Virus record (IMG/VR): IMGVR_UViG_3300017788_004205 | Location: 22,813 to 86,812 of that record | From: a virus | Length of the DNA stretch: 64,000 nucleotides | Direction: 5' to 3' (one strand) | Shown: positions 5,564 to 61,408 of the stretch, piece after piece | How positions within the stretch are numbered: position 1 is the stretch's first letter | Layout: every line of letters begins with the position of its first letter | The notes under the pieces: generated by a model | What the model saw: only the letters and a program-made list of their open reading frames with translations | Database searches by the model: none | Told to the model about the DNA's origin: nothing | Translations under genes and position numbers: made by a program

Positions 5564-7015
5564 ATGTATACTAATACGGTTTTGAACTACACCTCGTTTT
5601 TGAACGAATCCAAATCAAGCGATGAAGTGAAAATAATAATCTTTACAAGTAGAGCAAAAGGCAGTCCAACTACAAAAGCATTCGAAAAAGTTTGCAAAGA
5701 AAGAGGGATTGAATGCTATGTTGTAGATATTAATAACGCTTTGCTTGAAAAGGTTTATAATGGTCACTTGATAATCTATCAAGGTAAAAGAATTTTAATC
5801 GACCCTGATACAACCGCTATTATACCAAGAAGAGGTGTTATTGAGAACTCACATACGCGGAGATTATTTGCACAATTAGAGAAGTCCAGATATTTCATTA
5901 CAAATTCTTTGGACTCTATAAATGTTTGTGAAAATAAATATATTACTGCACAGATTTTGGAAGAGCATGGTCTCCCAGTTCCAAAATACTCTCTTGTCCC
6001 TGATGAAACATTCTTAGACACAGCTCTTGATTTGATTGGTGGAGAATTTCCGCTTATCTTAAAACTTATATCAGGAACACAAGGAATCGGAGTTTCTATT
6101 GTTGATTCTTACGCTTCCCTTAAATCTGTCTATCAAACTATAAAAAAACTGAATAATCAAAGTGAAATTCTCATTCAACAAAAGATAGATTCTGATTATG
6201 ACATTAGAATTCAAACTTTGGTTAAGAAGTTTAATCCCATCAAAGAAAAGAAAAACAATAAGATTGTTTTAGGTTCTATGATGAGAAAAAAAATAAAGGG
6301 TGATTTTAGAACTAATTATTCTCTTGGGGGAGAAGTCAATAAGTATGAATTGGATGAAAATGATAAATCAGATAAAGAACTATTAAACCTCGCATTTGAA
6401 GCTACAACAGCAGTTGGTTGCCATTGGTCGGGTGTAGACATCATCATAGATAAAAAGACTAAAAAGCCTTATATCCTTGAAGTTAATTCATCACCAGGAA
6501 CTGAAGGTATATCAAAAGTTTTAGGTGAACCGATTGTATCAAAAATTGTAGATTATGTAATAGACAAATCAAATTGGTCATACTATAATCTTGAAGTTGG
6601 TTATCTCGAACAGATTGAGATTCCTGGGTTGGGTGCTATGGTTGCTAAATTCGATACTGGAAATAGCTCAAAATCATGCAGTATTCATGCAGACAAAATT
6701 GAAGAAAAGGATGGTAAGTTAATTTGGACTGTTCTTGGAAAAACATTTGTCAATGATATAATAGACTATTCAAAAACAGAAGTGGGGCATATAATTCATA
6801 ATCGTCCTATCATTAAATTAGATATTACATTTAATGATGTTTTGATTAAAAATGTTAAAGTATCTCCAACAAATAGAAAGACAAAAACTACTCCATTATT
6901 GATGAATAGGGCATTTATGAGAAGAGTGGGTATAGTTGTGAATGCAAATAAAGCATTTGTTATAACAGATGAACCAGATGATTTTGACCCTAAAGCAGAT
7001 TCATTTAAGAAGTAA
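5564..7015 (+). CDS. rimK: RimK-like ATP-grasp glutamate ligase fused to RimB-like retropepsin-type protease, with head-targeting leader
   Basis: 483 residues from the ATG at 5564. The leader VLNYTSFLNES ends in LNE, like a T4 capsid-targeting sequence. Residues about 20-315 are a full RimK ATP-grasp ligase: LILKLISGTQGIGVSIVDS, the DYDIRIQ substrate-binding strand, GDFRTNYSLGG, and the metal-binding ILEVNSSPGTEGI. Residues about 340-475 match the ATP-dependent zinc protease family (RimB, PF05618): VAKFDTGNSSKS with the catalytic DTG, and MNRAFMRRVGIVV near the end. Bacterial RimK adds glutamates to ribosomal protein S6 and RimB trims them. Both activities on one leader-tagged chain suggest an injected modifier of the host ribosome or another target. 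Its 3' end overlaps the convergent helicase gene by 11 bases. Confidence 0.82.
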   Translation: MYTNTVLNYTSFLNESKSSDEVKIIIFTSRAKGSPTTKAFEKVCKERGIECYVVDINNALLEKVYNGHLIIYQGKRILIDPDTTAIIPRRGVIENSHTRRLFAQLEKSRYFITNSLDSINVCENKYITAQILEEHGLPVPKYSLVPDETFLDTALDLIGGEFPLILKLISGTQGIGVSIVDSYASLKSVYQTIKKLNNQSEILIQQKIDSDYDIRIQTLVKKFNPIKEKKNNKIVLGSMMRKKIKGDFRTNYSLGGEVNKYELDENDKSDKELLNLAFEATTAVGCHWSGVDIIIDKKTKKPYILEVNSSPGTEGISKVLGEPIVSKIVDYVIDKSNWSYYNLEVGYLEQIEIPGLGAMVAKFDTGNSSKSCSIHADKIEEKDGKLIWTVLGKTFVNDIIDYSKTEVGHIIHNRPIIKLDITFNDVLIKNVKVSPTNRKTKTTPLLMNRAFMRRVGIVVNANKAFVITDEPDDFDPKADSFKK

Positions 7016-8444
7016 TTCTCCAATCTTGTATGTAATTGAGAGTATTTTTAGCTCTTGTGATGGCTACATAATGAAGATTTTGTTCTTGAATCTTTTCCCA
7101 TTCTAAAAATGCGTTTTTAAGTGGCATCATATCAGGCATGATTATATGCACATTTTCCGCTTCTAAACCTTTAGATTTATGAGCAGTCATAAGAGTTATA
7201 CCGCTTTGAGCATCTTCACAAAAAAGAGATTTTACCTTTTCTTTAACATCATCTACCGTATTGCAACCTTCAATCAAAGTCTCACAAGCAGTGATTATAT
7301 CTTTCATATAAAGTAAGTTTATTTCAGATTCTTCTTCATCGCTCTCTTTTGCTCGTTCAAATTGATTCCACATGATTTTAATAGCAGAATGTAAGTTTGA
7401 AGCTCTTGTTCCTTCCAGTCTTTTAATTATTCTTTCACCTATATCTACACCTTTGATTTGAACTTTTTTTCCTTGTGATAGTAATTGCAGAGCCAAGGAT
7501 ATAATAGGTGAGTTTGTTCTACATAAAATAAAATCTCCATCTTTTATATCTCTTGTAGAAGCGGATTGATTGACTTTTCCTTCTGGAGAATTCTCAGAAA
7601 ATTCTATGCTTGGGACTATTTTTTGAGCCCATTTTACAACTTCCTTTGAGCATCTATAACTAATACTAAGAGGTAAAAGTTTTGTATTTGGGATTTGACA
7701 CATTTTCTTGAATGATTCATCATCAGCTCCACTGAAACCATAAATAGATTGATTTCTATCTCCAACTGCTATGATTCTGCCCCCTTCCCCCTTCATTTTC
7801 ATAAGAAGTTGAATTTGGCATAATGATAAATCTTGACATTCATCAACTAAAATGAGAGAATATTCTGATACTTTAATATCTTCCAATGCTGGAATATAAA
7901 TCATATCGGTAAAATCAATAATATCTCTCCTAAAATTCATGTGTTTTATAACGGTAAATGCATCATAAATCAATTCATCAGTTGCAGGTAACATGTGTTT
8001 TAATGCTATTTGTTTTGCGGTTATAACATCTTCGCACATATTAAACCTAAACAAACTTACAAGAGATGTGATAATGTCTATGTATTTATTGAGGTCTTGT
8101 TTTTTTCTTAATTCAAGAATATCAGAAATATCTTTGATAACCCTTTTCATTTTATTTGTATCTAATTTTGCTCCTCTGTATGCCCTCTTAATCTGTTCTA
8201 AGCCAAAAGAATGCACGGTTTTAACTTCTATTCCGTTTGGAACCCTTTTAACCATTTCATCTGCTATATGCTTATTAAAAGCTATGAAAATAATGTCTTT
8301 TTGACCTTTTGATAGCAATTTCATTGATTCTATGAGCGTTGTGGTCTTCCCAGAACCTGCAACAGCTTCAATGACAGCATTTTCATTCGAGTTCTTTATA
8401 TGCTCAAATATAGCTTCTTGGTATTTACTTGGTTTGAATGACAT
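7005..8444 (-). CDS. UvrD/Dda-like superfamily 1 DNA helicase
   Basis: 479 residues from the ATG at 8444; an upstream in-frame ATG at 8486 would add 14 hydrophobic residues and is less likely. All SF1A motifs are visible: motif I AVAGSGKTTT, motif II LVDECQDLS, motif III GDRNQSIYGFSGAD, motif IV ISYRCSKEV, motif V LMTAHKSKGLEAENV and motif VI YVAITRAKN. It is shorter than bacterial UvrD (about 720 residues) and near the size of T4 Dda (439). It should move 3' to 5' or 5' to 3' on single strands and strip proteins at forks or start recombination-dependent replication. The polarity cannot be read from the sequence. Confidence 0.9.
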   Translation of the reverse strand: MSFKPSKYQEAIFEHIKNSNENAVIEAVAGSGKTTTLIESMKLLSKGQKDIIFIAFNKHIADEMVKRVPNGIEVKTVHSFGLEQIKRAYRGAKLDTNKMKRVIKDISDILELRKKQDLNKYIDIITSLVSLFRFNMCEDVITAKQIALKHMLPATDELIYDAFTVIKHMNFRRDIIDFTDMIYIPALEDIKVSEYSLILVDECQDLSLCQIQLLMKMKGEGGRIIAVGDRNQSIYGFSGADDESFKKMCQIPNTKLLPLSISYRCSKEVVKWAQKIVPSIEFSENSPEGKVNQSASTRDIKDGDFILCRTNSPIISLALQLLSQGKKVQIKGVDIGERIIKRLEGTRASNLHSAIKIMWNQFERAKESDEEESEINLLYMKDIITACETLIEGCNTVDDVKEKVKSLFCEDAQSGITLMTAHKSKGLEAENVHIIMPDMMPLKNAFLEWEKIQEQNLHYVAITRAKNTLNYIQDWRITS

Positions 8445-8497
8445 ATTAATTTTTAAGTTAATGAAAAAATATAAAAAATTCAACAAATTTTTTTAAT

Positions 8498-8507
8498 GAT
8501 ATATAAT
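8498..8507 (+). promoter_or_regulatory. GATATATA-type promoter before the 8.5 kb unit
   Basis: GATATATAAT lies 29 bases before the ATG at 8537, between divergent genes. Confidence 0.45.
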
Positions 8508-8536
8508 GATAGAGTAAAACTACAATCTAAATATAT

Positions 8537-21578: not shown

Positions 21579-23228
21579 ATGGCAGGATTTGTATCAAAAG
21601 AATCAAATAGAACATACGGTTTCACATCTGGAACCGCAGATAGTGTTCGTAAACTCTCTTCATTCGGGATGTATTATGACGATTTGATTATCCAAAGGCG
21701 ACAAGCGGCTGGTGAAACAGAAACAAATATGGGCGGTTCTGGTGCAATCGGTCATTCTGTTTATGGTGGATATGGTTCTGCTCAATGGGACCAAAGACTT
21801 CTTGCGGCTATGGCTATGCAAGATATTGGAGGCATAAAGGCATTAGCCATCTACGACTCTAATTATGTTTCAAAAAGAGATTTCCTCCGTTCATTTTCTT
21901 TGAATGATGAGATTGTTGAGATTTTAGATACTATTGCTGATGAAGCTATTGTATATGACGATAAAAATTGGTTTTGTTATCCAGATACAAGAGGTTTGGA
22001 GAGTGTTTTAAGTGACAGTAAAAAAGAAGAAGTAGTTGATGCAATCCACGAAGAGTTTAAGAAGCTCTATGTGAAATTTGGATTTAACAATAACACAAAA
22101 GCTTGGAACCTTTTTAGACAGTATCTTATAGATGGTTTCTTGGCTTTTGAAATTGTAACTGATGAAGAAGGCGAAGATGTTATAGCCTTGAATAAATTAG
22201 ACCCATCTACTGTTGAATTATCAACAATCTTAGGTGAAGATGGCCAAGAGTATGTTGTTTGGTTGCAAAAAGTTGGAAATGATAATGAACAAAGGATTAT
22301 TTATGATTCTTCTTTGATTTATATAGCATATGCTCAAAATCTTCAAATGGATAGGGTTTCTTATGTAGAAAGACTTGTGAGACCTCTTAATCTTTTGAGA
22401 TTGATTGAAAATTCAAAGGTGATGTGGCATATCATGTATGCTCAATTTAGAATGAAAATGACTATTCCTATTGGAAGCAACTCTCCTCAAAAAGCAAAAC
22501 AAGAATTATCAGAAATCTTAAATCATTATAAAGAAGAAATATTCTTTAATGATGCAGATGGTACTCTTAGCATTAATGGTCGTCCTTCTATCCCATTCTT
22601 CAAGCATTTCATGTTTCCATCAAAAGATGGCAACTCTCCAAATGTTGAGGTAATTGGTGGTCAAGGTGGGCCTGATTTGTCAAATCCAGACTTTCTTAAA
22701 TATTTTGAGATGAAATTAAGAAGAGCATCTAAAATTCCTATGTCAAGATTCGGTGAGGGTGGGGGAACATTCTCTACTGCGGCAGAAGGAATCCAAAGAG
22801 ATGAAGTTCGTTTTTCTAATTTCGTTAATAGATTGCGTTCTGGATTCCAAGAAATCATGCTAAAACCTTTGGTTTTACAGATTATTATGAAATATCCTGA
22901 ATTTCAAGGAGACCATCTTTTTAAGTCAAGCATAGGTATAAAGTTCAATAGAGACAATAGTTTTGAGACAGCAAGAAAAGTTGAGGTTATGAAAAACCGA
23001 GTTGATACTATAACTTCTTTATTGGGAGTTCCAAAAACAAAGGATGATTCTTACTTTGACCTTGATTTTGCTATGGAAAACTTCATGAACATGACTCGTG
23101 ATGAACTAAAAGAAAACAAGTCAATGCTCAAAGAAAAGGAAAAGAAATCGGGCGACCAACCAGGTGACCAACCTGTTGATACGGAAGAAGGCGGAGGAGA
23201 AGCATCAACAGAAGCACCAGCTCTATAA
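21579..23228 (+). CDS. 20: Portal vertex protein, T4 gp20 family
   Basis: 549 residues, near T4 gp20 (524). Visible family features are the wing and stem segments ending in FFKHFMFPSKDGNSPNVEVI, the loop GGQGGPDLSNPDFLKYF, and the hallmark C-terminal block ASKIPMSRFGEGGG with IQRDEVRFSNFVNRLRSGFQ at residues about 405-425. Twelve copies form the ring at the special vertex through which DNA is packaged and ejected. The C-terminal 40 residues are polar and low complexity. A stem-loop follows the gene, separating it from the leader-protein block that begins at 23340. Confidence 0.92.
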   Translation: MAGFVSKESNRTYGFTSGTADSVRKLSSFGMYYDDLIIQRRQAAGETETNMGGSGAIGHSVYGGYGSAQWDQRLLAAMAMQDIGGIKALAIYDSNYVSKRDFLRSFSLNDEIVEILDTIADEAIVYDDKNWFCYPDTRGLESVLSDSKKEEVVDAIHEEFKKLYVKFGFNNNTKAWNLFRQYLIDGFLAFEIVTDEEGEDVIALNKLDPSTVELSTILGEDGQEYVVWLQKVGNDNEQRIIYDSSLIYIAYAQNLQMDRVSYVERLVRPLNLLRLIENSKVMWHIMYAQFRMKMTIPIGSNSPQKAKQELSEILNHYKEEIFFNDADGTLSINGRPSIPFFKHFMFPSKDGNSPNVEVIGGQGGPDLSNPDFLKYFEMKLRRASKIPMSRFGEGGGTFSTAAEGIQRDEVRFSNFVNRLRSGFQEIMLKPLVLQIIMKYPEFQGDHLFKSSIGIKFNRDNSFETARKVEVMKNRVDTITSLLGVPKTKDDSYFDLDFAMENFMNMTRDELKENKSMLKEKEKKSGDQPGDQPVDTEEGGGEASTEAPAL

Positions 23229-23339: not shown

Positions 23340-23804
23340 ATGAAAATCTTCGAGGAATACAAAAAAGACAAAGTGCATGAAGCCAAAGTATATGCTGGCG
23401 AACCTTTAAAAGAGGACATGGAAACTATCAAAAAGCATATAAATTCAGTCATTTTGAAGCCTTATAAGGTAAAAGCAGAGATATTTTCACTGCATAGAGA
23501 TTTTGGCGATTCTCAAACATTCATATCTAATCCCATAAGTGGAGCAGGTTTAGGTATATTCGGCCCAGCTATTGAGTATGTTCAATTAAATTTGGTTGTA
23601 TCCAATCTGCCAAATAAATCAAATGCAAAAGAAATTGAGTTTTTGATTCGCTATACAACAAAAAGCAATTTGAATAACTCATTCCCAAGCGGTAAATATA
23701 TTTTACAGGATGGGGTTATACAATTTGTAAGTTCAGAGGAAAACAAGCCTATTGAAGAAGTGGGTGAATCTAAATTTGCGGTTTCAAGCCACGATGAAAT
23801 ATAA
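23340..23804 (+). CDS. Putative head-packaged protein, 154 aa
   Basis: Begins MKIFEEYKKDKVHEA, with VHE as a possible prohead-protease site. The body is a beta-rich domain (VKAEIFSLHRDFGDSQTFIS, EYVQLNLVVSNLPN, KEIEFLIRYTTKSN) with no family I know. It is first in the operon. The next gene starts 12 bases on. Confidence 0.6.
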   Translation: MKIFEEYKKDKVHEAKVYAGEPLKEDMETIKKHINSVILKPYKVKAEIFSLHRDFGDSQTFISNPISGAGLGIFGPAIEYVQLNLVVSNLPNKSNAKEIEFLIRYTTKSNLNNSFPSGKYILQDGVIQFVSSEENKPIEEVGESKFAVSSHDEI

Positions 23805-23816
23805 TTTTTTTATAAA

Positions 23817-27073: not shown

Positions 27074-28051
27074 ATGGAAAATAGAAGAATACTTACATAT
27101 GACAAATTCAATTTAAATGAAGTTCTAATAACAGGGCCAGAACAAGCTATTTCTATTATTTCCGCTGAGTCTGATAAGAGTGCTAAAAAGAGAATAATAA
27201 AAGAAATAGCGCAAGAATATTTCTCAGATGATTTGATTTTTGGTAGAACCCAACTTTCTTTGAATTCTCAAAGCCAAGATGTTTCTGTTTTACAAACAAT
27301 ACTTAAATCTCTCGGGTATTTGAAAAAGCATATAGTAGATGCGAAGATAGACCAAGAAACAATGATTGCAGTCCAATCGTTTGCAAAAGGTTTCGGGATT
27401 TCAGTTGATGTAAATCAGCCAATACCAGCTGATGTTATTAGAATACTAACAGAATTTGATTCTGCAAAGTATGATGAGATAGAAGCAAAAGAAACTCCTA
27501 AAAAAGAAATACAACAACCCTCGACTCCAACAACACTTTCTATCGTTATGCCACAATCTTCTGTTAATAGAGGAGAAGGTGCTAACTATGGTGTTAATTT
27601 TCCAGACCAAAAATATGAGAATAAATATAAATTCTCCATTCAGTATAGTAAAGCAAAAGATGGTGAAAAAAATGTTTCTCCAAATTTTAAGGTAAAAGAT
27701 TTTGCCTGTAAAGATGGCTCCGATGTTATACTTATAAACCCTTATTTAATTGAGCTTCTTGAAAAAATAAGAGCTCATTTTGGAAAGTCTTTGAACATAA
27801 ATTCTGGATATAGAACCCCTCCATATAATAGAAAAATAGGAGGCGCTGGTATTTCTCAGCATATGTTTGGAAATGCAGCTGATTTTAGGATAGATGGAGT
27901 AACCCCTCTTCAAATATGTACATGGTTAAATACTTTTCATACAGGAGGCATAGGTCTTTATGTCACAAAAAACTTTACTCATGTAGATGTTAGAAATGTT
28001 ATTGGAACTGAAAAAGCCACATGGTCTAAACCGAAGAGCGTAAAGTTTTAA
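27074..28051 (+). CDS. Peptidoglycan peptidase, M15_3 type, with leader and PG-binding domain
   Basis: 325 residues from the ATG at 27074, four bases after the previous stop. The leader MENRRILTYDKFNLNE ends in LNE. Residues about 60-125 are a PG-binding domain that resembles the one in the previous gene, including the shared ISVDVNQPIPADVI-type end. After a Pro/Thr linker, residues about 205-320 are an M15A-like domain: NINSGYRTPPYNRKIGG, SQHMFGNAADFRI, GGIGLYVTKNFTHVDVR. It should cut D-Ala-containing or cross-bridge peptide bonds. It may open the cell wall during DNA entry. Confidence 0.87.
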   Translation: MENRRILTYDKFNLNEVLITGPEQAISIISAESDKSAKKRIIKEIAQEYFSDDLIFGRTQLSLNSQSQDVSVLQTILKSLGYLKKHIVDAKIDQETMIAVQSFAKGFGISVDVNQPIPADVIRILTEFDSAKYDEIEAKETPKKEIQQPSTPTTLSIVMPQSSVNRGEGANYGVNFPDQKYENKYKFSIQYSKAKDGEKNVSPNFKVKDFACKDGSDVILINPYLIELLEKIRAHFGKSLNINSGYRTPPYNRKIGGAGISQHMFGNAADFRIDGVTPLQICTWLNTFHTGGIGLYVTKNFTHVDVRNVIGTEKATWSKPKSVKF

Positions 28052-37126: not shown

Positions 37127-38272
37127 ATGATAACTAATTATAGCGATTTTGTATTAAACGAAGGTTATACTAATCCTCAAAAGGTTTATACAATAGATAA
37201 GATAAAACTTAGAACTCAGGGTGAGTATTTAGCTAATCCTTCTCTTATAGATGAAGATATAGCTAAGTTTAGAAACTTATCGGAACTCATAAATTTAGAT
37301 GATATTTTAAGAAAAAAAGATTATAGTAAATATTCATCCGCACTAAAAGAATTTATCAAAACGAAAGCATATAATAAGTTAGTAGAGGTAATGTATGGTA
37401 AGGGATATAATAATCCAGAAAAAGATTCTACAGAAATAATAGTAGGATTAGACCCATCTTCAATGGCTTCTGCTATGAAATATGGCTCTACTCCAAAAAC
37501 TATTAAAATGACTCGCGGAGAATACTTCAAAAAAGTTTGGGCAAGAGTTGATGAATATTGTGATAATTCTGTTGAATTTTTACAAAAAGGCATAATAGAA
37601 GATACATTAGGGGATTTTGTAGATTATAGTAAAAACATACTTTTAATAATACTCGCGGCTGTTATTATCTATTTCGGGGCAAAGGCTATGGCAGTAGGAG
37701 CATCTGGAGTTGTAACTTTTGCGTCATCTACCACAGGTCTTTCTGCTATACGTAACATAATATTAAATGCAGGAGTTAAGTCAATGCCCTTTGTTGAAAA
37801 GTGCTCCTTGGCTATACAGAGACTTGTATCTAATCCTAAAACTTGGATGAGTTTAGCATCATGGGAAATATTTGATGCGGCTCCTAAAATAATAGAAATG
37901 TTTTCGTCTAATGATGCTGACGTTTTGCTACAACTCGATGAAGAACATATTTTAGAAAAACTCTCAGAAAAAAACAAAAAAGTACAGATAGCAAAAATCA
38001 AGAAAGCATTGGAAGAGCATTCTGACTTCAATGTTAAACCATTTTTAGACGGCCCAGTTCAAGTATGGCAAGATGCATTTCAAAGGATGCCAGGGTGGGA
38101 AGCATGGTCTCAAAAAGAAGGTAAATCTATAAACAACAATCCACAAAATCTTGGTTATATATTTACATATTACATAGCTTTATACGCATATCAATTTCAA
38201 CTATTTATTTGGAAATACAATTATCTGCTAACATTAAAAGAAGGTAGAGATGTTGATTTTTCAAAACTTTAA
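37127..38272 (+). CDS. Family B putative head-packaged membrane protein, copy 2
   Basis: 381 residues, six bases after the previous stop. The leader MITNYSDFVLNEGY ends in LNE. The family core is complete: YNKLVEVMYGKGYNNPEKDS, YFKKVWARVDEYCDN, then a membrane helix (ILLIILAAVIIYFGAKAMAV) near residue 170. The C-terminal region KALEEHSDF ... MPGWEAWS ... NLGYIFTYYIALYAYQ is closely matched by the gene at 39714. A single conserved Cys (EYCDN here, QFCNR there) is shared. Confidence 0.68.
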   Translation: MITNYSDFVLNEGYTNPQKVYTIDKIKLRTQGEYLANPSLIDEDIAKFRNLSELINLDDILRKKDYSKYSSALKEFIKTKAYNKLVEVMYGKGYNNPEKDSTEIIVGLDPSSMASAMKYGSTPKTIKMTRGEYFKKVWARVDEYCDNSVEFLQKGIIEDTLGDFVDYSKNILLIILAAVIIYFGAKAMAVGASGVVTFASSTTGLSAIRNIILNAGVKSMPFVEKCSLAIQRLVSNPKTWMSLASWEIFDAAPKIIEMFSSNDADVLLQLDEEHILEKLSEKNKKVQIAKIKKALEEHSDFNVKPFLDGPVQVWQDAFQRMPGWEAWSQKEGKSINNNPQNLGYIFTYYIALYAYQFQLFIWKYNYLLTLKEGRDVDFSKL

Positions 38273-38286: not shown

Positions 38287-39711
38287 ATGCTCTACAGACC
38301 TATCCATCCAAATAAAAAAGAAGATATTAACAGAGTAGATGAGAGTAATTTTATCTCTTCTGATATGTTAGGTATATTTGATTCAGATGCAAGAGTTAAA
38401 TTAAGTGCTCTCACAATAGATAAATTATTTGAAGGATTAGATATAGATAATTCAAATGAAATTCATAGTTTCATTACTTCATTTGCTCCTTCCTTATCAA
38501 AAGTTATGGGAGTTTATAGTTCAGAGTCTAACTATGCATTCGAGATTCTAAAGGCTCAACTGATGTATATGCAAACTATTTTGCAAGATGTTGAGAATGA
38601 TATAGATTCTTTTTACAAGAATGTAATTAATGTTCACAAAAGCTATACAGACGGCCAAACAATAGAAACTCTTGTTGCTAAGTATAGCAATCCAAATAGT
38701 GTTGGTTCTATTTTCCCTGAGGTTGAAAAAATAGTTAAACAAGCAAAGAAATCAGGAGTTGATTTTAATAACCCAAGAGTTAAAGAAACATTCAAAACTC
38801 TTCAAAAGTTGAATGTTAGCACTTATATTAGTCAAACCCTAAGTTCAATTGAAGTTTCAGCTTCAAATGTAAGTTTGCTTCCTCTTTACAAGAAGATAGA
38901 TGGAATGAATTTAGAAGAAATCACGGGAGATAATGCAATCGCTCCTCAAAACAAGAGTCATTTGTTTTTAACTCTTGATTTCAATTCTATGTATACTTCT
39001 TTAGACCCAATTGCAAGACTGGGAGCTTTCTTTGAAGAAACTTTATTGCAATATCCATTCGGAAGACAATTAAAGAAGAATTTCGGAGACGAGTATGAGT
39101 ATTTTGATACTATTGAACATAGCATGTCTGCTATAAAACAATTTGTTCCTTCGGTTGATTATACTGTATTTGAACCGATGAAAGAAATGCTTTATGAAAT
39201 TAGTGCTTTATTGGTAAATCGAGTGTTTTCAATGCACCCAGAAGAAGATTCTAAGAATATATTCGTTCCTTCTTTTCAAGTTATGTGGGTGAGTATATTA
39301 TCTCTTTTAGCTTTAAGACTCATTAACTTTAATGTTAGAGTTTCAAATGTTATTACTCAAAAAAAGGAAGAGAAAAAAGAACTAAAATCCGAAAAAGCAT
39401 CTGAATTAACTCAAGCTTATGAAACTCTAAAGCAACAAAACTTCTTTACAGACAAAATTACCTATAAAGAAGGTGATGCGACAATGAATCCAGAGATAAT
39501 CAAAAATATAAATAATATCTTAGTTAAGTTGACAATACTTCCAGATTCTAAGATTAATTCTACGCAGTATGATAGTCAAACAGCGGAAGCTATTAGAACA
39601 CTTCAAATGAATCATTCTGCTGAATTTGTTGATGGGAAGATAGGTCAAGAAACAAAAGAAATTATGGAAAAGATTATCAATCACATACAAAATAAATATA
39701 AAATGTCTTGA
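38287..39711 (+). CDS. Family A putative head-packaged PG-binding protein, copy 3
   Basis: 474 residues. N-terminus MLYRPIHPNKKEDINRVDES with VDE as a candidate cut site. Closely similar to the copy at 33530 along its length. The hydrophobic helix is FQVMWVSILSLLALRLINFN, followed by a Lys/Glu coiled coil and a PG-binding domain with AIRTLQMNHSAEFVDGKIGQ. Its stop codon overlaps the upstream alternative start of the next gene, so A and B copies are tightly coupled. Confidence 0.7.
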   Translation: MLYRPIHPNKKEDINRVDESNFISSDMLGIFDSDARVKLSALTIDKLFEGLDIDNSNEIHSFITSFAPSLSKVMGVYSSESNYAFEILKAQLMYMQTILQDVENDIDSFYKNVINVHKSYTDGQTIETLVAKYSNPNSVGSIFPEVEKIVKQAKKSGVDFNNPRVKETFKTLQKLNVSTYISQTLSSIEVSASNVSLLPLYKKIDGMNLEEITGDNAIAPQNKSHLFLTLDFNSMYTSLDPIARLGAFFEETLLQYPFGRQLKKNFGDEYEYFDTIEHSMSAIKQFVPSVDYTVFEPMKEMLYEISALLVNRVFSMHPEEDSKNIFVPSFQVMWVSILSLLALRLINFNVRVSNVITQKKEEKKELKSEKASELTQAYETLKQQNFFTDKITYKEGDATMNPEIIKNINNILVKLTILPDSKINSTQYDSQTAEAIRTLQMNHSAEFVDGKIGQETKEIMEKIINHIQNKYKMS

Positions 39712-39713: not shown

Positions 39714-40808
39714 ATGGAAAACAAAAAAAGAATACTCAATTTTCAGAATTTTGTAATCAATGAAAGTTCATTACATGAGTCTAATACAGTAGATATCCCA
39801 GATTCAGAAATTTCAAAGATTCTTGATAGAGATATGACAACATATCTAAAAGGTCGTATGTGGGAAAAAAGTATTGAAGTTTTTTTTGGTAAAGATTATC
39901 TTAAAAAACCAGGTTTCAATCCAGAGAAAGATACTACTCCTATTACCGTAGATAATTGGATTTCAGGCAATGTATCGATTGATGCTGGTGGGTTTTTTAG
40001 AGATTCTTGGCAAGAGACTGACCAATTTTGCAATAGAGCAGTTGAGCTTGTAAAGACAGGTGAGTTATCAGATTTCTTAGGTAAAATTGCAGTCCCAGCT
40101 GGTTGGGCTGGAATAACCGCTGCAACAGTAGCGGGTCTTATAGCTATTGGTGGGATTGCTATTCCAAGTGCTACTATTGCTTCTGGCTTTATAGGAGCGA
40201 CAGGAGGATTAGGATGGGGTGCAATAGCAATTAACACATCTGCGCTTGGTTCATTAGCTCTTAATTTAGCCCCTTTATTTTCGGATAATCCAAAGATTGA
40301 CCCAAGTCTTCAAAGAATAGCAAAGATGGTTATTAACAAAGAAGAAACTATAAAAGAATTTCAAAATGCTTTACAAGAACATTCTGATTTTGAAGCAGAT
40401 TGGGGTCTTGATAATTGGTTATCAGGAATAGATGAGATGCCAGGATGGTCAAAAAGCACTTGGAAAGAAAAAGGAGCAGATAATATAGGCTATCTCTTTA
40501 CTTATTGGATTTCTTATTATTCTTATATTTACTTAAAAACAAAATTTGGAGCTTCTGTTGCTCAGGCTATAAAAAACTTTGAACAGGGTGGCGGTTCTGT
40601 TAAATTGATTGATAAGCCATTTGAAATCAATCAAAAAACATCAATAGAGCCCATTTCTAAGCCTTCTGAGGGGACTTCAGGTTCTACTCCTATAAATTCT
40701 CAAGTTCAAGCACAAGGAAGCCCTGTGGCGACCGCAGATGCCTCAAATTGGGTTAAAAAGAGAGAAGTTACCGTCAATGACGAAGTTCTTTCAAAATATG
40801 GATTCTGA
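39714..40808 (+). CDS. Family B putative head-packaged membrane protein, copy 3
   Basis: 364 residues from the ATG at 39714; a TTG at 39708 would add two residues. The leader KKRILNFQNFVINESS ends in INE. The core repeats family B: SIEVFFGKDYLKKPGF, FFRDSWQETDQFCNR, a Gly/Ala/Ile-rich membrane region of about 60 residues near residue 130 (WAGITAATVAGLIAIGGIAI and onward), then ALQEHSDF, MPGWSKS and IGYLFTYWISYYSY. The C-terminal 70 residues are a Ser/Pro/Gln linker-like tail. Confidence 0.68.
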   Translation: MENKKRILNFQNFVINESSLHESNTVDIPDSEISKILDRDMTTYLKGRMWEKSIEVFFGKDYLKKPGFNPEKDTTPITVDNWISGNVSIDAGGFFRDSWQETDQFCNRAVELVKTGELSDFLGKIAVPAGWAGITAATVAGLIAIGGIAIPSATIASGFIGATGGLGWGAIAINTSALGSLALNLAPLFSDNPKIDPSLQRIAKMVINKEETIKEFQNALQEHSDFEADWGLDNWLSGIDEMPGWSKSTWKEKGADNIGYLFTYWISYYSYIYLKTKFGASVAQAIKNFEQGGGSVKLIDKPFEINQKTSIEPISKPSEGTSGSTPINSQVQAQGSPVATADASNWVKKREVTVNDEVLSKYGF

Positions 40809-40893: not shown

Positions 40894-42174
40894 GTGATTA
40901 CAAAGTTCGACATATATTCAAATAATAAACTGAATGAGATAGCTGGTATTTATGATGGTTATTATGGGACAACTCTAAAAGATTTTAGAATGTCCGATTT
41001 ATACCAAATTACAGCTCTTTCGGCTCAATCTACCATTGAAATCTTCAATGGTAATGATACATTTCAAACCGCACTTCTTCCTACATCTTCACTTTGGAAT
41101 ATGATTGATGTTGGTTATAAATCATGTACTACTGGTATGCTTTCCTTACTTAAAGCAAATTTCAAGAAATCTGATATAGAAGCGTTTGAAGATTTGCTTT
41201 ATATGAAAGAAAATAAAGATGTAATCAAAAAGGTTGCAAAACTATTAAAAAGCGATATTCAAAATTTCAAGTCTTATTTAGAGACTATTTTGCCTGACCA
41301 AGTTACTAATTTGAAAAAAATCAAAATAGAACGCTCAGATTCAAGTTTTTCTGATGCAAGTAGTCCTATTGATGTTGTTCAAAAAGAAATCTTGATTAAA
41401 ACAAGAAAGTATAGAAACCCAGTTTATATGGTCGGTGTGTTTCTTACAAACTTGATTGGTAATTATCAACCAGCTCAAAATTTCCTTAGTCTTTCTGACT
41501 TTGTTAAAAAATTCGACTTATCTGTATTTCATTCTTTATTTGGTAGCAGTAATCCTATCAATAATTTAGATGAATTTGATAGTATTGTAGAAAAGCCACT
41601 TAAAAAATTAGCAGAGTCTTTTCTTCAAACTTATTATCACATGAGATATTATGACTTAATCCCAGGTGCCGACAATGCTTGGAAATCAGTTGTTATAGTC
41701 CATGCACTTGAAGTTTTGATTGATAATTGTATTTTGGTTGAAGAAGATAAGATTAGCGCAACTCTTGCGGTTAAATTCTCAAAACAAATTAAGAATCATT
41801 CTGAAACTAAAACTTGGATAGGATATGAAGGAGTACAAGAAGCTTCAATAATAAAAAGCATTCAAAAAACTTTACAGGCAATGGGTCTTTTCAAAGGCGG
41901 AATTACAGGTAAATTTGGAGAATTGACACATGCTGCTATTATTAAATTCCAAGAAAATGCTGTTAATCAAGAAGGAAAGAGAATCAAAGTTGATGGTAGA
42001 GTTGGAAAGCAAACAAGATGGGCTCTTGAGCATTTAATGGATTCTTATATTCCATATAAGAAAAAAGAAGACTCTGGAGAAGAAAAGAAGAAAACAAATA
42101 AAAAAGGCGAGGTAGTATGGCCTGAGGTTAATCAAAAAGAAGATGGTAAATCTGCAAAGCCTGTTATAATCTAA
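40894..42174 (+). CDS. Putative head-packaged protein with C-terminal PG-binding domain, GTG start
   Basis: 426 residues from a GTG placed 23 bases after a promoter. The leader ITKFDIYSNNKLNEIA ends in LNE. The body is helical and distantly like family A. Residues about 325-390 are a peptidoglycan-binding domain: IIKSIQKTLQAMGLFKGGIT, HAAIIKFQENA and VDGRVGKQTRWALEHL, the best-preserved of the set. The C-terminal tail is Lys/Glu-rich. No catalytic motif is visible. Confidence 0.7.
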   Translation: MITKFDIYSNNKLNEIAGIYDGYYGTTLKDFRMSDLYQITALSAQSTIEIFNGNDTFQTALLPTSSLWNMIDVGYKSCTTGMLSLLKANFKKSDIEAFEDLLYMKENKDVIKKVAKLLKSDIQNFKSYLETILPDQVTNLKKIKIERSDSSFSDASSPIDVVQKEILIKTRKYRNPVYMVGVFLTNLIGNYQPAQNFLSLSDFVKKFDLSVFHSLFGSSNPINNLDEFDSIVEKPLKKLAESFLQTYYHMRYYDLIPGADNAWKSVVIVHALEVLIDNCILVEEDKISATLAVKFSKQIKNHSETKTWIGYEGVQEASIIKSIQKTLQAMGLFKGGITGKFGELTHAAIIKFQENAVNQEGKRIKVDGRVGKQTRWALEHLMDSYIPYKKKEDSGEEKKKTNKKGEVVWPEVNQKEDGKSAKPVII

Positions 42175-42184: not shown

Positions 42185-42643
42185 ATGATTAACTCTTGTA
42201 AGATATTGTCGTTTATTGAGTTTGTAAATGAAGAATACGATACTATCAACGAATTAAAGTATAGTTATATTTACAAAAGAACCCCAAAGAGATATAAAGA
42301 TAGGGCAACAGACATTGAAGTTAAATTCTTAACGAGAAAGGGAAAGAAATACTACTACCGAACTTTTACAAACAGCAATGGCAATAAGCATAAGCAATGG
42401 ATTATGCCATTATATCCAAAACTTCCTTTTGATTCATTAGAAGACCATGTTGTATCGCATTGTGATTGCAATGATTTTAGATATGAAAATGAATGGTTAC
42501 TATGGACAAAAAATGCCTCTAACCTTATATCCTCAAATAGACAGCCTCTAAAGAGTATGAATCCTCAAAGAATTCCAAAATTCTGTAAGCATTTAACTGC
42601 TATAAAAGAAGACTTACATAAGCGTTTGCTTAGTTCTCCTTAA
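42185..42643 (+). CDS. SWIM-like zinc-binding protein with head-targeting leader
   Basis: 152 residues. The leader CKILSFIEFVNEE has VNE as its site. The second half has a Cys-x-Cys and Cys-x-His pair: HCDCNDFRYENEWLLW and RIPKFCKHLTAI, with NPQ and the N-A-S motif between them. This is the pattern of phage SWIM-type zinc domains (CxC...CxH), which bind DNA or protein. Its last 14 bases overlap the 3' end of the convergent small gene. The leader suggests packaging in the head. Confidence 0.7.
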   Translation: MINSCKILSFIEFVNEEYDTINELKYSYIYKRTPKRYKDRATDIEVKFLTRKGKKYYYRTFTNSNGNKHKQWIMPLYPKLPFDSLEDHVVSHCDCNDFRYENEWLLWTKNASNLISSNRQPLKSMNPQRIPKFCKHLTAIKEDLHKRLLSSP

Positions 42644-42891: not shown

Positions 42892-43632
42892 ATGCGGAAT
42901 ATAACACCATATAATCTTTTTGAAGCGTCATCTGGGGCTTTTAAGCCTTTACTTAAAACAGTAGAATATTTGCAAGGTAAAGAATGCGTTTTTATAACAA
43001 CTTCAAATAGATGGGATAAGGAGTTACCAAAATCATCAGAATTAGCGGAAGTTTTAGCTTCTATGATTGACCCTAAACCAAGAATTTTTGACGCATTTAA
43101 ACTTAAAATCTATCCTTGTGAGGGGAATGTTTCTCACAGAGACGGTAATCACTGTGGAGAAGCAAAAGCTATTATGAAGGATAAAGAAAAAAACCCAGGG
43201 AATTTCCTTAGATGTTGGGCTTCTTTAAATAATCCCGATGATGAACTTTGGAGAATTGCAAGTGCAATTTATGAAGCAGATGCTGTTGTGTTTTTTGGTT
43301 CAATTAGATGGGGTTCTATGAACGCAACATATCAAAAACTTTTAGAAAGATTGACTTGGATAGAAAATAGACAATCATCACTTAAAGAAAAAAATCCAGT
43401 AAAAGGAAAAGAAGCAGGTCTTATTGTTCTCGGTCATAATTGGAGAGGCAAAGAAGTTGTAAATCAACAAAAAGACATTCTTGAAATGTTTGGTTTTGAG
43501 ACTCCTAAAGAACTTTTCTTCAATCATCAATGGACAAATGAAATGTATGATGAATCTTTGAAGGGATATGTTCAAGATTCAAAAGAATTTGATGCAAACA
43601 TTTTAGACATAACTGATAGAATAATTCAATAA
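42892..43632 (+). CDS. NAD(P)H-dependent FMN reductase/flavodoxin-like protein with leader
   Basis: 246 residues. The N-terminus MRNITPYNLFEASSG resembles a leader with LFE. After that comes a flavodoxin-like fold: ECVFITTSNRWDK, then ADAVVFFGSIRWGSMNATYQ followed by KLLERLTWIENR, the pattern of the FMN_red family flavin loop, and GLIVLGHNWRGKE. The Cys-containing segment IYPCEGNVSHRDGNHCGEAK is unusual for the family and could hold a metal or disulphide. Possible roles are flavin or quinone reduction or redox control. If packaged, it would act at once on entry. Confidence 0.65.
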   Translation: MRNITPYNLFEASSGAFKPLLKTVEYLQGKECVFITTSNRWDKELPKSSELAEVLASMIDPKPRIFDAFKLKIYPCEGNVSHRDGNHCGEAKAIMKDKEKNPGNFLRCWASLNNPDDELWRIASAIYEADAVVFFGSIRWGSMNATYQKLLERLTWIENRQSSLKEKNPVKGKEAGLIVLGHNWRGKEVVNQQKDILEMFGFETPKELFFNHQWTNEMYDESLKGYVQDSKEFDANILDITDRIIQ

Positions 43633-47396: not shown

Positions 47397-48086
47397 TTAC
47401 TTCAAGATTGCATATCCAACAACTGATTTTGCACCGCATTTCAAAAGAGCGTCACAAGCTTCTTTTAAGGTTGTTCCTGTTTCTGCATAGTCGTCAATGA
47501 TAGCAACATTTTTTCCTAAAACTTTATGTTCAAGGGAAGGATTAACGCCCAAGAAGTTTTTGATGTTTGCTTTATCTTCTTTTCCAATCTTTTCAATATC
47601 AAAATCTCCATATCTAAAAAGACGAGAAACCTTTTTATCTACACTATCGCTTGTTGTTTTAATGTCATTTCGTGTTTTTGTCAAATAAACAAGGTTCTTG
47701 AGAACCATAGGTTTAATGCCTTCTGAAAAATCAAGTTTATCTACTAAGTCACCTGCGAGATTTGTTTTTGTTGTCTTGATTGTTCCTATAACATCGAAGC
47801 TCTTATCTTTCATGTGGTCTGTGAACATTCTGGATGCTTTGCCGATAAGTTTACCTGCTTTTGTATTATCAAGAGTTTGAACAGAGCCCAAAGCACCTTT
47901 TAATCTTCTTATGTCTGGATTTACCATAGGTCTATTATCTGGGTCCATACCAGCTGAGTTAAAAAGGCATATATTACAACCATTTTCAAGGAGTATTTCA
48001 TCAAGTCTGTAGATTTCAGATTCTGAACTCTCATCTACATTATTGGATTCTCCGATGTAGGATATAAATTCTTTAAAATTTCTCAT
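47397..48086 (-). CDS. Phosphoribosyltransferase-like protein with head-targeting leader
   Basis: 229 residues. The leader MRNFKEFISYIGES has the N-F-x-x-F pattern and ends IGE. The C-terminus holds the type I phosphoribosyltransferase signature: VAIIDDYAETGTTLKEACDA (PRPP-binding loop with DDYAETGTT) and GAKSVVGYAIL. The first part includes a Cys pair (NGCNICLFNSAG). The middle is helical and not like standard nucleobase enzymes; it could use PRPP or NAD-related substrates, or be a ComF-like DNA uptake protein. It is a single-gene unit behind the palindrome at 48105. Confidence 0.72.
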   Translation of the reverse strand: MRNFKEFISYIGESNNVDESSESEIYRLDEILLENGCNICLFNSAGMDPDNRPMVNPDIRRLKGALGSVQTLDNTKAGKLIGKASRMFTDHMKDKSFDVIGTIKTTKTNLAGDLVDKLDFSEGIKPMVLKNLVYLTKTRNDIKTTSDSVDKKVSRLFRYGDFDIEKIGKEDKANIKNFLGVNPSLEHKVLGKNVAIIDDYAETGTTLKEACDALLKCGAKSVVGYAILK

Positions 48087-48189: not shown

Positions 48190-48609
48190 ATGAAAAAACA
48201 TGTTCTTTTGTATGAGGAATTTGCACCCAAAGAAACTGATAGCACAGATTCTTGGGATATCCCAACCTCAAAAAACTGTAAAATTGAGACAATATCACTA
48301 TATGATGAGAATGGAGAGGTGGTCACATATAATCAAGATGACCATGAGGGAACCTTGGTAGGTGATGTATTTTTCAATAATAATAGCCCAAGTGGATATC
48401 AAGGCGATTTATATAGAGATTGGATTGATGGTTCATTGGGTAATGCTGTTATGAACTATATCAATAAAAACTATAATTATATTGAACCTGTTTATATGAT
48501 TGAAGTCGAGCTTTTGCCTCAAGGTGGTAAGAAAACATTCACTTTGGCTTATGATTTTAATGGAAGTGAATATAAATTGAGAGAAAAGAGATATTTACCA
48601 TTAACCTAA
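48190..48609 (+). CDS. Hypothetical protein with possible leader, 139 aa
   Basis: I use the ATG at 48190, giving KKHVLLYEEFAPKETD, a leader-like start; an upstream TTG at 48139 is the alternative. The body is acidic and beta-rich (KIETISLYDENGEVVTYNQD; YMIEVELLPQGGKKTFTLAY). No family recognised. The next gene, a metalloprotease, follows after five bases, so the two form a unit. Confidence 0.55.
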   Translation: MKKHVLLYEEFAPKETDSTDSWDIPTSKNCKIETISLYDENGEVVTYNQDDHEGTLVGDVFFNNNSPSGYQGDLYRDWIDGSLGNAVMNYINKNYNYIEPVYMIEVELLPQGGKKTFTLAYDFNGSEYKLREKRYLPLT

Positions 48610-49655: not shown

Positions 49656-51077
49656 TTACAATACAACCTCACCTTTGATATATGACTTATTTCTTATTTG
49701 ACCTTCTGTGAATTTTGCGTTTGAACGTTGGTCAAATATGTATAAATCCTTTCCGATTTCAGTTGCTAAACCATCTAAATTTTTTAGTTCATTTTCTTGA
49801 ATGCAATACATTCCAGTTACAATTTCAGGCCCGCCTTTGAGAGTTGTTAAATAACAATCAGATGCTACAAAATCACCTTTTATGATACGGGGACAACCTT
49901 CTAAGGAATCTAAATGATTTGAATCGAGAAATAAACTACCTGTTATTTCATTAGGTAAACCATCGAGGCTTCTGAGTCTATTGTTATTGAGAGTAACATT
50001 TCCTTTAATGAATCTAAATGTAACTGGTATCATAGTAAGATTATAAAACATGTAAGTTATGTCACTATATGCTAATACAGATAAGTCATTATTTATTTCA
50101 TACCAATCACAATTTATAATCCGCATAAATTCATCAACTTCTTCTCTTGTCTCTGCTTTTCTGAAGTTATACCAATTCAAACTAACTCTTGGTTGATATG
50201 TTCCTGTTGCATTTCTTAATTCTCTATATTCTTCTTTTTTTGGCATTACATTGTGAAGAACGCCATCGTCTGTTAAATAAAAGAATGTATCTAAATAAGG
50301 ATAAGTATCGAATTCAAATTTATTCAATGTTATCGTATAATCCTTAGAGAACTCTTTTCCATTACTCATAAACAAATGAGAGTGAATAGGTTTAGAATCA
50401 TCTTTTGCTCTATAAACTATTTTATTTTCATCTGCCCAATCTCGCAATACATTCTTTAGCTCAGGTTCTGTTGAATAGATTTTATCCATAACAATATCGC
50501 CTTCATCTGTATTCCAAATCAATGCTCTTGCTCTTATTTTAGATTCTTCGTTTGTAATTATAACGCAACCTACTTTATCGGGATTTTTTACATATATGTT
50601 TAAGTAAGGTTGACATTCTTCGCCCCTCATACAATTCATTTCCATATCCCCCTTTTCTGATTCATAGTTTGATTTAAGATATGTTATTTTAATATCTTCA
50701 CCTTTCACTATAACTGGTGTTGTAGTTTCTTTTACAGATGTTGCTTTGTAAGCAGTCACAAAGTCAGAAACATCTTCTTGGGTAAAGTTAGCGTTTATTT
50801 TTCGTATGAGTTTACCTATCTTCACAATATCAGAAGGGTTTACAGGTCTGTTTGCCCTTTTTATATTTACTTCATCGGATTTTTCAGTTGCTATTATTTT
50901 TTCAGTATCTCTCAAATCACTATCAGTTTGGATATACTTATTATCATCCATCATATTTACAATAGATGATGATATAGGATGATTTATTTTTTTAAGTCTA
51001 TCTACAAAACTATCATCTAATTGTACTAATGACTCTAATAGTCTATAAAGTTCAAATGAATTAAAATTGCCTATCAT
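49656..51077 (-). CDS. Leucine-rich-repeat protein with head-targeting leader
   Basis: 473 residues. The leader MIGNFNSFELYRLLES ends LLE. The N-terminal 300 residues are not assigned; they contain EMNCMRGEECQPYLNIYVKN and look like a mixed domain. Residues about 345-445 are leucine-rich repeats: GNVTLNNNRLRSLDGLPNEI, GSLFLDSNHLDSLEGCPRII, and further units with the L-x-x-L-x-G-x-P step. LRRs bind protein partners. The start overlaps the upstream amidoligase stop by four bases, so the two are coupled. Confidence 0.72.
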   Translation of the reverse strand: MIGNFNSFELYRLLESLVQLDDSFVDRLKKINHPISSSIVNMMDDNKYIQTDSDLRDTEKIIATEKSDEVNIKRANRPVNPSDIVKIGKLIRKINANFTQEDVSDFVTAYKATSVKETTTPVIVKGEDIKITYLKSNYESEKGDMEMNCMRGEECQPYLNIYVKNPDKVGCVIITNEESKIRARALIWNTDEGDIVMDKIYSTEPELKNVLRDWADENKIVYRAKDDSKPIHSHLFMSNGKEFSKDYTITLNKFEFDTYPYLDTFFYLTDDGVLHNVMPKKEEYRELRNATGTYQPRVSLNWYNFRKAETREEVDEFMRIINCDWYEINNDLSVLAYSDITYMFYNLTMIPVTFRFIKGNVTLNNNRLRSLDGLPNEITGSLFLDSNHLDSLEGCPRIIKGDFVASDCYLTTLKGGPEIVTGMYCIQENELKNLDGLATEIGKDLYIFDQRSNAKFTEGQIRNKSYIKGEVVL

Positions 51078-52446: not shown

Positions 52447-52448
52447 CC

Positions 52449-52458: not shown

Positions 52459-52485
52459 TTTAATTCAATTAAAGGAAAAAAATTG

Positions 52486-59721: not shown

Positions 59722-60555
59722 ATGGGTAAAATTAAAAACTTTTCGGAATATCATAATATTGAAGAATCTCAAATTCTACTTGAAAAAACATTCAATATAG
59801 AGTCTGATGTTGATTTGATTTATGAAAAGGGTGGATTTTCTGAATTCTTAAAAGCATTTACTGCTGGCGAAAAGCCATATGAAGATGAATTAAATTCTAT
59901 CCAGAAGATTAAACATATAGTTTTTGATTTAATACCATCCTCCGAATTACAAACAGAAGATTGTATTAATGCACATAGACAAAATCCTATTGATATTTAC
60001 ACTGGGATAACTATAATGGGAAGTCACTATTCTCCTACTAATAAAACTATATTCATCTCATTGAACTCAAGTGCTTTAGATGTTAATTATTCTGGTGATA
60101 TTCATTACATAAGTTCTTCTCAAAAAGAAACAATCTATAATGAAATTACAGAGCAAAGAATTAAAATAGCAATACATCATGAACTATCACATTGGATAAG
60201 TGACTCGCTTTACAATAAACACATTGGGAGAATTATAAATAGAGGGCTTGAATTACAAAATAATGACATAATTAAATTAAAGCAAAAAGATGTTAATATG
60301 ACATATTTTGAAATTGATGCTCAAGTACACTCTATCAAAGAATTAAAAAGAAATTATGATGAAAGAGAATGGAATGAACTATCTTTAAGAGATATAATGA
60401 TTAAATACCCATCTCTTTCTGCTGTTTATAAAGAATTAAAATCAAAGCATGGTTTAGATGTTGCTTTACTATGGCAAAAGAATTTAACAAAAAGACTATA
60501 CAGAGAAGGTCTATTGGGTAACAATATGAAACAATTTGTAAGAGATTTTGTTTAA
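59722..60555 (+). CDS. Zincin-type metalloprotease with head-targeting leader
   Basis: 277 residues. The leader MGKIKNFSEYHNIEES ends IEE. IAIHHELSHWISD near residue 152 is a HExxH zinc site (HELSH). TYFEIDAQVHSIKEL about 50 residues on may supply the third ligand, a Glu or His. An Asp/Tyr-rich middle (INAHRQNPIDIYTGI) is part of the substrate side. The family beyond zincin is not identified. It differs from the metalloproteases at 48615 and 63452 outside the zinc motif. Confidence 0.72.
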   Translation: MGKIKNFSEYHNIEESQILLEKTFNIESDVDLIYEKGGFSEFLKAFTAGEKPYEDELNSIQKIKHIVFDLIPSSELQTEDCINAHRQNPIDIYTGITIMGSHYSPTNKTIFISLNSSALDVNYSGDIHYISSSQKETIYNEITEQRIKIAIHHELSHWISDSLYNKHIGRIINRGLELQNNDIIKLKQKDVNMTYFEIDAQVHSIKELKRNYDEREWNELSLRDIMIKYPSLSAVYKELKSKHGLDVALLWQKNLTKRLYREGLLGNNMKQFVRDFV

Positions 60556-60590
60556 TTCTCTTGAATATTTTTGTCCAAAGGAGATTTGAT

Positions 60591-60761
60591 ATGAAAAAAT
60601 ACAACTATGGCCATATTCTTGAAGTTTGGAAAGAACCAAGAATTGATTATGTAGAAAGTGTGAGGTTTAACAAAAGAAAACGAATATTGAAATTAATGTG
60701 GATTTCAATTGGATTGATTCTCGCCTTAGGCATAGTTTCCACAATATATCAAATATTTTAA
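60591..60761 (+). CDS. Small single-span membrane protein, 56 aa
   Basis: AAGGAG lies ten bases before the ATG, a textbook ribosome binding site. The N-terminal 35 residues are basic, the C-terminal 20 a membrane helix (LMWISIGLILALGIVSTIYQ). The topology is probably N-in. It could be a holin-like or membrane-regulating peptide; a single span is short for a classic holin. Confidence 0.65.
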   Translation: MKKYNYGHILEVWKEPRIDYVESVRFNKRKRILKLMWISIGLILALGIVSTIYQIF

Positions 60762-60787
60762 CGAGCTTTGTAAATTAAAAACGTATT

Positions 60788-61408
60788 ATGAAATACATAA
60801 AAAGATTAGAATTATTTAACAATCATTCATGTGTGAATGAGACTAATAATACACTTGACAAATATAATTGGCCTCCTATTCCAACTGATATCCACTCTTT
60901 GTCATTAGAAGAGATGTCAAAAATGTTTGGTTATATTCAGTGGAAAAAAGGAAGTGGGGATAAAATCATTGTAACCAATAATTTCATTAAAGAAAACATA
61001 ATGGATATAGAATTACCTCAACTTGCAAAAATAAAAAATCCACCAAGAACATTTAGAATAAAATGCCATAAACTTGCGGTTGTTCCTATTTTAAGATTGT
61101 GGGAAGAATGGGAAAAGGCAGGTTTACTAAATAGAATTGAGAGGTGGCATGGTTGTCATAATGCAAGAGTCCAAAGAAATTCTAAAACTACCCTAAGTAA
61201 TCATGCTTGGGGGACGGCTTTTGATATAAATAGAGAAACAAATGATTTAGACCGAATGCCTCCAGCTGTGGGTGAAAGAGGCTCGGTTAGAGAATTAGTT
61301 CCTATAGCAAATAAATTAGGATTTTACTGGGGTGGACATTTTTCTAAAAGAAAAGATGGTATGCATTTTGAACTATCTACACTTGGAGATAGACAAATTA
61401 TTATGTGA
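60788..61408 (+). CDS. M15_4-type peptidoglycan peptidase with leader
   Basis: 206 residues. The leader MKYIKRLELFNNHSCVNETN has VNE. The catalytic domain is a paralogue of the one at 26116: NHAWGTAFDINRET carries the first His and Asp, RELVPIANKLGFYWGGHF is shared almost exactly, and GMHFEL has the last His and the Glu. It lacks the PG-binding domain of the other copy. It is a candidate for a head-packaged wall hydrolase or for the lysis endolysin; the leader favours the first. Confidence 0.85.
   Translation: MKYIKRLELFNNHSCVNETNNTLDKYNWPPIPTDIHSLSLEEMSKMFGYIQWKKGSGDKIIVTNNFIKENIMDIELPQLAKIKNPPRTFRIKCHKLAVVPILRLWEEWEKAGLLNRIERWHGCHNARVQRNSKTTLSNHAWGTAFDINRETNDLDRMPPAVGERGSVRELVPIANKLGFYWGGHFSKRKDGMHFELSTLGDRQIIM

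Follow-up and report, generated by a model that had tools for sequence, protein, structure and literature searches.

We analysed a 64,000-nucleotide window of viral DNA (bases 22813-86812 of an 86.8-kb IMG/VR virus record, itself part of a huge T4-related phage) in which many predicted proteins begin with a similar short leader, comprising a pair of aromatic residues three apart and an (L/I/V)xE site. Judging from sequence, these leaders probably represent an expanded capsid-targeting system of the T4 type, in which each leader would mimic a repeat of the scaffold and the proteins that bear it, here called cargo, would be packaged and delivered. Capsid-targeting leaders and their spread among the internal proteins of T-even phages are already known; searches of the open-licence literature found no report of a leader set at such scale or of scaffold-repeat mimicry in huge phages, and the parts of a 2026 jumbo-phage review reached by the terms searched do not mention such leaders (PMC13282480).

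Leader genes and their excess at N-termini

We searched a mechanical first-ATG gene list for a two-module pattern, [FY]xx[FY]x{0,9}[ILVM]xE beginning at residues 3-12, taking the interior of these same proteins as the background. Of the 92 genes of the 86.8-kb fragment, 14 carry the two-module leader, where 0.88 are expected (P ~8e-13), and the zero-gap, T4-like pattern is found 3 times, against 0.05 expected; a control with shuffled N-termini, run with a slightly different pattern, gave 12 observed against 1.8. The gap limit was loosened after the window had been seen, gaps of up to 9 being justified by T4 ipI (FKEF...ITE), and because it was set post hoc, the zero-gap pattern, which derives from the genetics of T4 IPIII, is the cleanest test when applied to distant relatives, where it also performs best.

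Once orthologue-supported and variant forms are included (genes 23340, 29341, 42892, which ends LFE, and 48190, and the paralogues 31306/33530/38287; genes are named by their first coordinate), the window holds about 17-20 leader genes, which agrees with the "about twenty" of a first-pass annotation made from the letters alone. All twelve starts that it listed are open reading frames with the leaders it quoted, including a GTG at 40894, where both the GTG and the leader (MITRYSKFKEAKLNE) recur in a sibling genome. Its further statement that these proteins share nothing else does not hold for two paralogue groups (31306/33530/38287 and 37127/39714), nor for several proteins that have a peptidoglycan-binding domain in common. 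Genes 35051, 48615 and 28076 have weak leaders or no (L/I/V)xE site close by. The leader genes are listed below with the portal gene, a slash marking the predicted cut site.

5564..7015, + strand: leader MYTNTVLNYTSFLNE/ preceding a RimK-like ATP-grasp ligase (Pfam RimK 1.4e-29) whose C-terminal domain is Zn_protease-like (PF05618)
21579..23228, + strand: portal protein (gp20-like), the anchor for phage placement (phrog_213 1.1e-67; tblastn to LR756500-504 and Lak)
23340..23804, + strand: leader MKIFEEYKKDKVHE/ on a small protein immediately after the portal gene; kept in three siblings, MRIFxEYKxxKVNE/AK
27074..28051, + strand: leader MENRRILTYDKFNLNE/ on a peptidoglycan-binding and M15 peptidase protein (Pfam M15_3 4.4e-22)
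29341..31281, + strand: leader MITKFNQYQKLLE on a 646-amino-acid protein with a weak C-terminal peptidoglycan-binding domain; sibling leaders MITRFNAYERKLNE and MIKRFNEYENKLNE
31306..32760, + strand: paralogue family member with N-terminus MLFKGFLPNVNQIQKVNE, a weaker leader form; paralogous to 33530 and 38287
32839..33462, + strand: leader MKIRNFNDFILNE/ on an ankyrin-repeat protein (Ank 2e-27); pattern match
33530..35017, + strand: paralogue with the site ...NISE/GNFISAD; a sibling keeps LNE/SNFISSD
35996..37120, + strand: leader MIIEFSKFASLKE/ on a protein without Pfam match; pattern match
37127..38272, + strand: leader MITNYSDFVLNE/ on a protein without Pfam match; pattern match
38287..39711, + strand: paralogue with the site ...INRVDE/SNFISSD; sibling QKLNE/GNFISSD
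39714..40808, + strand: leader MENKKRILNFQNFVINE/; sibling MKRRILNFESFLLEN
40894..42174, + strand: leader MITKFDIYSNNKLNE/, starting from GTG, on a peptidoglycan-binding protein (PG_binding_1 5.2e-9); GTG and leader kept in a sibling
42185..42643, + strand: leader MINSCKILSFIEFVNE/; zero-gap match
42892..43632, + strand: type-2 leader MRNITPYNLFE/ASS on an FMN-reductase-like protein (Pfam FMN_red 5.2e-6); form kept in a sibling
47397..48086, - strand: leader MRNFKEFISYIGE/ on a phosphoribosyltransferase-domain protein (Pfam 1.2e-9); sibling MRNFKEFLTLLSE
48190..48609, + strand: leader MKKHVLLYEEFAPKE/; sibling MKKYFLLFEEFTPKE
49656..51077, - strand: leader MIGNFNSFELYRLLE/; the sibling leader differs, retaining F and ILE/SLVQLD
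59722..60555, + strand: leader MGKIKNFSEYHNIEE/ ahead of a body in which the metallopeptidase-like motif HHELSHW was recognised by eye, Pfam giving no match; pattern match
60788..61408, + strand: variant leader MKYIKRLELFNNHSCVNE/ joined directly to an M15 peptidase domain (M15_4 8.4e-17)

Leader enrichment across phages

By tblastn, the portal gene links the fragment to the uncultured huge phages LR756500-504 (462-735 kb) and, more remotely, to T4-like cyanophages and Lak phages. Its siblings, in which the portal is 82-85% identical, include G001 (199.9 kb; portal identity 85%), G002 and G003, and relatives at ~40% include G004 (256 kb); W01 denotes LR756500 and W02 the first 400 kb of LR756502.

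The zero-gap pattern is found in 23/319 genes of G004 (0.65 expected, P 1e-27), 22/628 of W01 (1.2 expected) and 17/568 of W02 (1.6 expected). Sibling G001 has 20 leader genes among 220, with 3.9 expected, and the IMG/VR relatives, when pooled, have a leader excess as well. A second form, type 2 (MKHLKxYKIFE), begins 38 W02 genes against 1.4 expected and six in G001 against 0.28, and is represented in the window by one conserved case, 42892. Clustering of leader genes is not significant within the window, and is strong in G004, W01 and W02. Outside this group, the matches in T4 (140 of 169 kb) were ipI, ipII, ipIII and two that are likely chance, and cyanophage P-SSM2 has about three convincing leaders (MKSFKQFLEE, MKSFSQFLTE and MRTFQEFLQLCE). 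No excess was found in Lak (26% GC; 5 against 6.4 expected) or in CBB (9 against 8.4). The leader set is clade-wide and not a general property of phages.

Attachment of the leader to unrelated bodies

The leader behaves as a module that is separable from, and conserved ahead of, the body it precedes. In the 5564 protein, RimK_N starts at residue 23, past the leader, which is kept in G001 (ILDYSSFLNE) and G003. Leader residues persist in orthologues at 45-55% body identity (ILTYDKFNLNE, ILNFSDFVLNE, ILKFSDFVLNE, IYSFGEFVLNE, IYNYEEFVLNE), and four orthologues of 27074 at 45-55% identity retain its aromatic pair and LNE. The (L/I)xE site next to the aromatic pair is kept in most orthologue sets, some leaders having VxE; in the 42185 sibling SFIDF is present and the neighbouring cut site is changed. 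Conversely, the body family of 49656 is present in L007 with another N-terminus, and 60788 is 49% identical over 184 amino acids to 26116, which has a peptidoglycan-binding domain in the place of the leader. The 31306 protein had no tblastn match among annotated phages.

Relatives show the same separation on a larger scale. G004 has 26 leader genes with unrelated bodies, and its 24 gap-free leader proteins fall into 24 unrelated body families; in its cassette 193196-200277, 14 of 15 consecutive genes (13 by strict pattern) carry the near-identical leader MKHIKLFEQFVNE. Counting every gene that fits any of the patterns, leader genes number 76 over the 400 kb of W02 and 44 in W01, and they spread across 56 and 32 body families respectively. 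True paralogues also occur: one family has 18 members in W02, another 12 in W01. A large paralogous family at 11-110 kb of W02 (loci L207-L212) combines the leader MKHLKxYKIFES with a body motif like IKDILLELxDDG.

Cargo in the window comprises the RimK-like ligase (5564), two M15 peptidases, and peptidoglycan-binding, phosphoribosyltransferase, FMN-reductase-like and ankyrin proteins; W02 adds PPK2 and an ankyrin protein, and W01 leucine-rich-repeat proteins and a VWA-metallopeptidase. The G004 cassette contains an Acb1-like anti-CBASS protein and a zeta-type kinase, with an R2K ATP-grasp protein elsewhere in that genome. Since T4 Ip1-3 are injected anti-restriction proteins (PMC12373910), anti-defence cargo is to be expected, and the Acb1-like cargo parallels their role. 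The Acb1-like protein (L154:18662-19201, - strand, equivalent to G004:198662-199201) has both HxT motifs and the head leader MKHIKLFEEFVTE, which suggests, on sequence grounds, a pre-packaged anti-defence function.

Three observations concern the surroundings of these genes. The C-terminal domain of the protein at 5564-7015 resembles the ATP-dependent zinc protease family PF05618, here fused to a RimK-like ATP-grasp. Downstream of the portal gene, window 23340-42174 holds a cluster of proteins in which peptidoglycan-binding domains recur, something unusual in head cargo. An Amidoligase_2-like protein without a leader (window 51074-52459, - strand) adjoins leader gene 49656 and has relatives in LR756500 and G004.

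The leader motif recurs in a protease-scaffold fusion

An S77 (gp21-like) protease gene is present in G001 at 166459-168477, and also in G004-G007, W01-W04 and Lak; the Pfam S77 match is above cut-off in G001, G004-G007, W01 and Lak, and below it in W02-W04. The His and Ser motifs, DHP and SSRAAG, are invariant across nine fusions. The protease forms the N-terminal portion of a 600-670-amino-acid protein in G001, W01 and G004, and a capsid-protein gene follows it. The tail of the fusion holds 5-14 units of [FYH]xx[FYH][LIV](A)E, most of them at a spacing of exactly 14 residues. G001 has fourteen (YINYLAE, YSNYLAE, YSNYIAE and so on), W02 twelve, W03 eleven, W04 thirteen and one distant unit, and W01 and G004-G007 five to seven; the span for LR756502/504/501 is 11-14. 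Shuffled tails average 0.04-0.16 units. The core of the scaffold repeat is the core of the leader and is the same as that of the T4 leader, YQEFIAE; leaders and repeats are also alike in having an acidic or amide residue at +2 and a small or polar residue after the E. As the protease is fused to a scaffold with multiple [FY]xx[FY][LIV]AE units, the leader is probably one repeat grafted onto a cargo gene. The separate scaffold of CBB and the Lak fusion have no repeats, and both genomes are without the leader expansion.

The leader IKTFEQF(I/V)SE begins the protein encoded between portal and protease in relatives. A gp23-like protein at G001:164687-166429 (loci L109) has LNE/S near residue 43, in agreement with the leader cut sites; in W01 and G004 this position reads LYE.

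Comparison with known head systems

Genetics of T4 IPIII assigned targeting to residues 4 and 7 and processing to residues 8 and 10 (PMC9026906), and the window leader agrees with the T4 capsid-targeting sequence at all four of these positions, its [FY]xx[FY] module being enriched at N-termini. We confirmed the T4 sequences as MKTYQEFIAE and, for ipI, MKTFKEF TSTTTPVST ITE. T-even phages together are reported to have at least ten internal proteins (PMC12373910). Like the leader proteins of the huge-phage clade, T4 IPI, IPII and IPIII are otherwise unrelated proteins with a short N-terminal leader, aromatics three apart and an (L/I)xE site, and the gap between modules is variable in T4 as well (ipI). 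They differ in number, T4 having three leaders by pattern against 15-76 per fragment or genome in the clade, which in addition has enzymes among its cargo, YxIFE as a second form of leader, and a scaffold built from the same motif.

The protease and scaffold also differ from their T4 counterparts. In the more distant relatives the S77 protease, with its conserved motifs, has portal and gp23-like genes as neighbours, as gp21 does, but the clade fuses gp21 and gp22 functions into a 600-800-amino-acid protein with 5-14 motif units, whereas gp22 of T4 and cyanophages has by eye at most one similar unit (FIDHLAK, FIDHLAKEWLAEN in T4; YLEYVAD, YLEYVADEWVQEN in P-SSM2). Among other giant phages, phiKZ and SPN3US also pack many proteins and cut after x-x-E with an S77-related protease, but most of their propeptides far exceed T4-type leaders in length, phiKZ is cut at S/A-x-E, and no counterpart of gp22 is confirmed there. 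Heads of Lak and of CBB (Rak2-type) share the S77 protease and gp20-type portal but have scaffolds without repeats and genomes without leaders. Rak2-type jumbo phages (CBB, Serratia BF, MIJ3) were considered as proteomic support and set aside; given their repeat-free scaffolds and the lack of a leader excess in CBB, we used them as negative controls.

Other features of the fragment

Leader-gene start codons are preceded by A-rich stretches, and we saw no obvious Shine-Dalgarno sequence before them; this arrangement is as in Bacteroidota. A collagen-like protein with long G-x-Q-G-N-Q repeats (window 971-2971, + strand) is probably a fibre and differs in length among siblings. An IF-3-like protein, resembling by eye the bacterial translation initiation factor (SQTVRVVDEEGSQLGIMSIQEAL...ANPPVIKLIDYGKWKY), lies at L001:18960-19478 (- strand) and is also found in siblings and LR756500.

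Weighing the explanations

We propose that during head assembly the aromatic pair would dock each leader protein in the prohead core as one more scaffold repeat; that the S77 protease would cut leaders and scaffold repeats alike after (L/I/V)xE; and that the cleaved cargo would remain beside the DNA inside the head until infection, when it would be delivered. By analogy with its relatives, the window's own phage presumably has the same fusion, and docking, cleavage, packaging and injection would proceed there in the same manner. A more specific form of the proposal, towards which we lean with less assurance, is that the leader mimics one scaffold repeat and that single copies on dozens of cargo genes constitute a genome-wide plug-in packaging and injection system, anti-defence proteins (Acb1) included.

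The first-pass annotation had already suggested T4-style capsid targeting, a suggestion favoured by the four-residue T4 match and by tens of leader genes on mostly unrelated bodies in relatives. Of the checks it proposed, the motif search over fragment and relatives gave an N-terminal excess in the fragment, G001, G004, W01 and W02; the gp21-like protease is present, with invariant His and Ser motifs, in G001 and in those more distant relatives that were tested, but absent from the incomplete fragment. This last result is one of several that weigh against the proposal. Our search of the 86.8-kb fragment found no S77 protease, although, as the left end of the fragment aligns to G001 at ~126-130 kb, the gene would sit ~36-40 kb past the fragment end. 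Some leaders have a long or imperfect gap before the cut site, some paralogues retain the cut site alone, and leader and repeat mismatch at +5 (N against A) and at the upstream hydrophobic position. The correlation of leaders with repeats is built on few, related genomes; a low-confidence AlphaFold model of the fusion (mean predicted local distance difference test score 43) shows the repeats as long helices and is uninterpretable beyond that; and we found no proteomics for this uncultured clade.

Among the alternatives, it is possible, if rather unlikely, that the leaders do target the prohead core but that most of the proteins bearing them serve in assembly or in the core (gp67/68- or gp22-like) and are degraded or leave the head, and are not effectors delivered to the host. 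Some leader genes adjoin the portal, such as 23340 and the gene of the protein between portal and protease in relatives, and T4 core proteins are gp21 substrates too; however, enzymes to which one would not readily assign a structural role are numerous among the cargo (RimK-like ligase, phosphoribosyltransferase, PPK2, Acb1-like protein, M15 peptidases), and leader genes are scattered genome-wide and in accessory cassettes. We regard it as very improbable that the leader directs proteins elsewhere, for example to a phage nucleus, a replication compartment or the inner membrane: any sorting signal would appear as a short common N-terminal motif on unrelated proteins, but this one has the residues of T4 capsid targeting, terminates in a site of the gp21 type and resembles the repeats of the scaffold, and the window's replication genes (gp32-like 52634, UvsW-like 55794, UvrD-like helicase 7005) have no leader. 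Still less credible is that the common N-termini are functionless relics of gene duplication, for although some leader genes are truly paralogous (the W02 and W01 families above), the G004 bodies fall into 24/24 separate families beneath near-identical leaders, and leader positions are kept in diverged orthologues. Chance or composition in an AT-rich genome, which a short and degenerate motif might invite, is refuted by the N-terminal excess over internal positions, the shuffle control and the figures for AT-rich Lak (5 against 6.4).

Implications

If leaders are indeed packaging signals copied from the scaffold, the injected proteins of huge phages would become readable from sequence, the leader naming the cargo, and packaged anti-defence and host-takeover proteins would be predicted among their mostly unannotated genes. 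The T4 capsid-targeting sequence would gain a physical explanation as the copy of a scaffold repeat, and the leader itself would be a natural tag, seemingly a versatile one, with which proteins could be loaded into large capsids.

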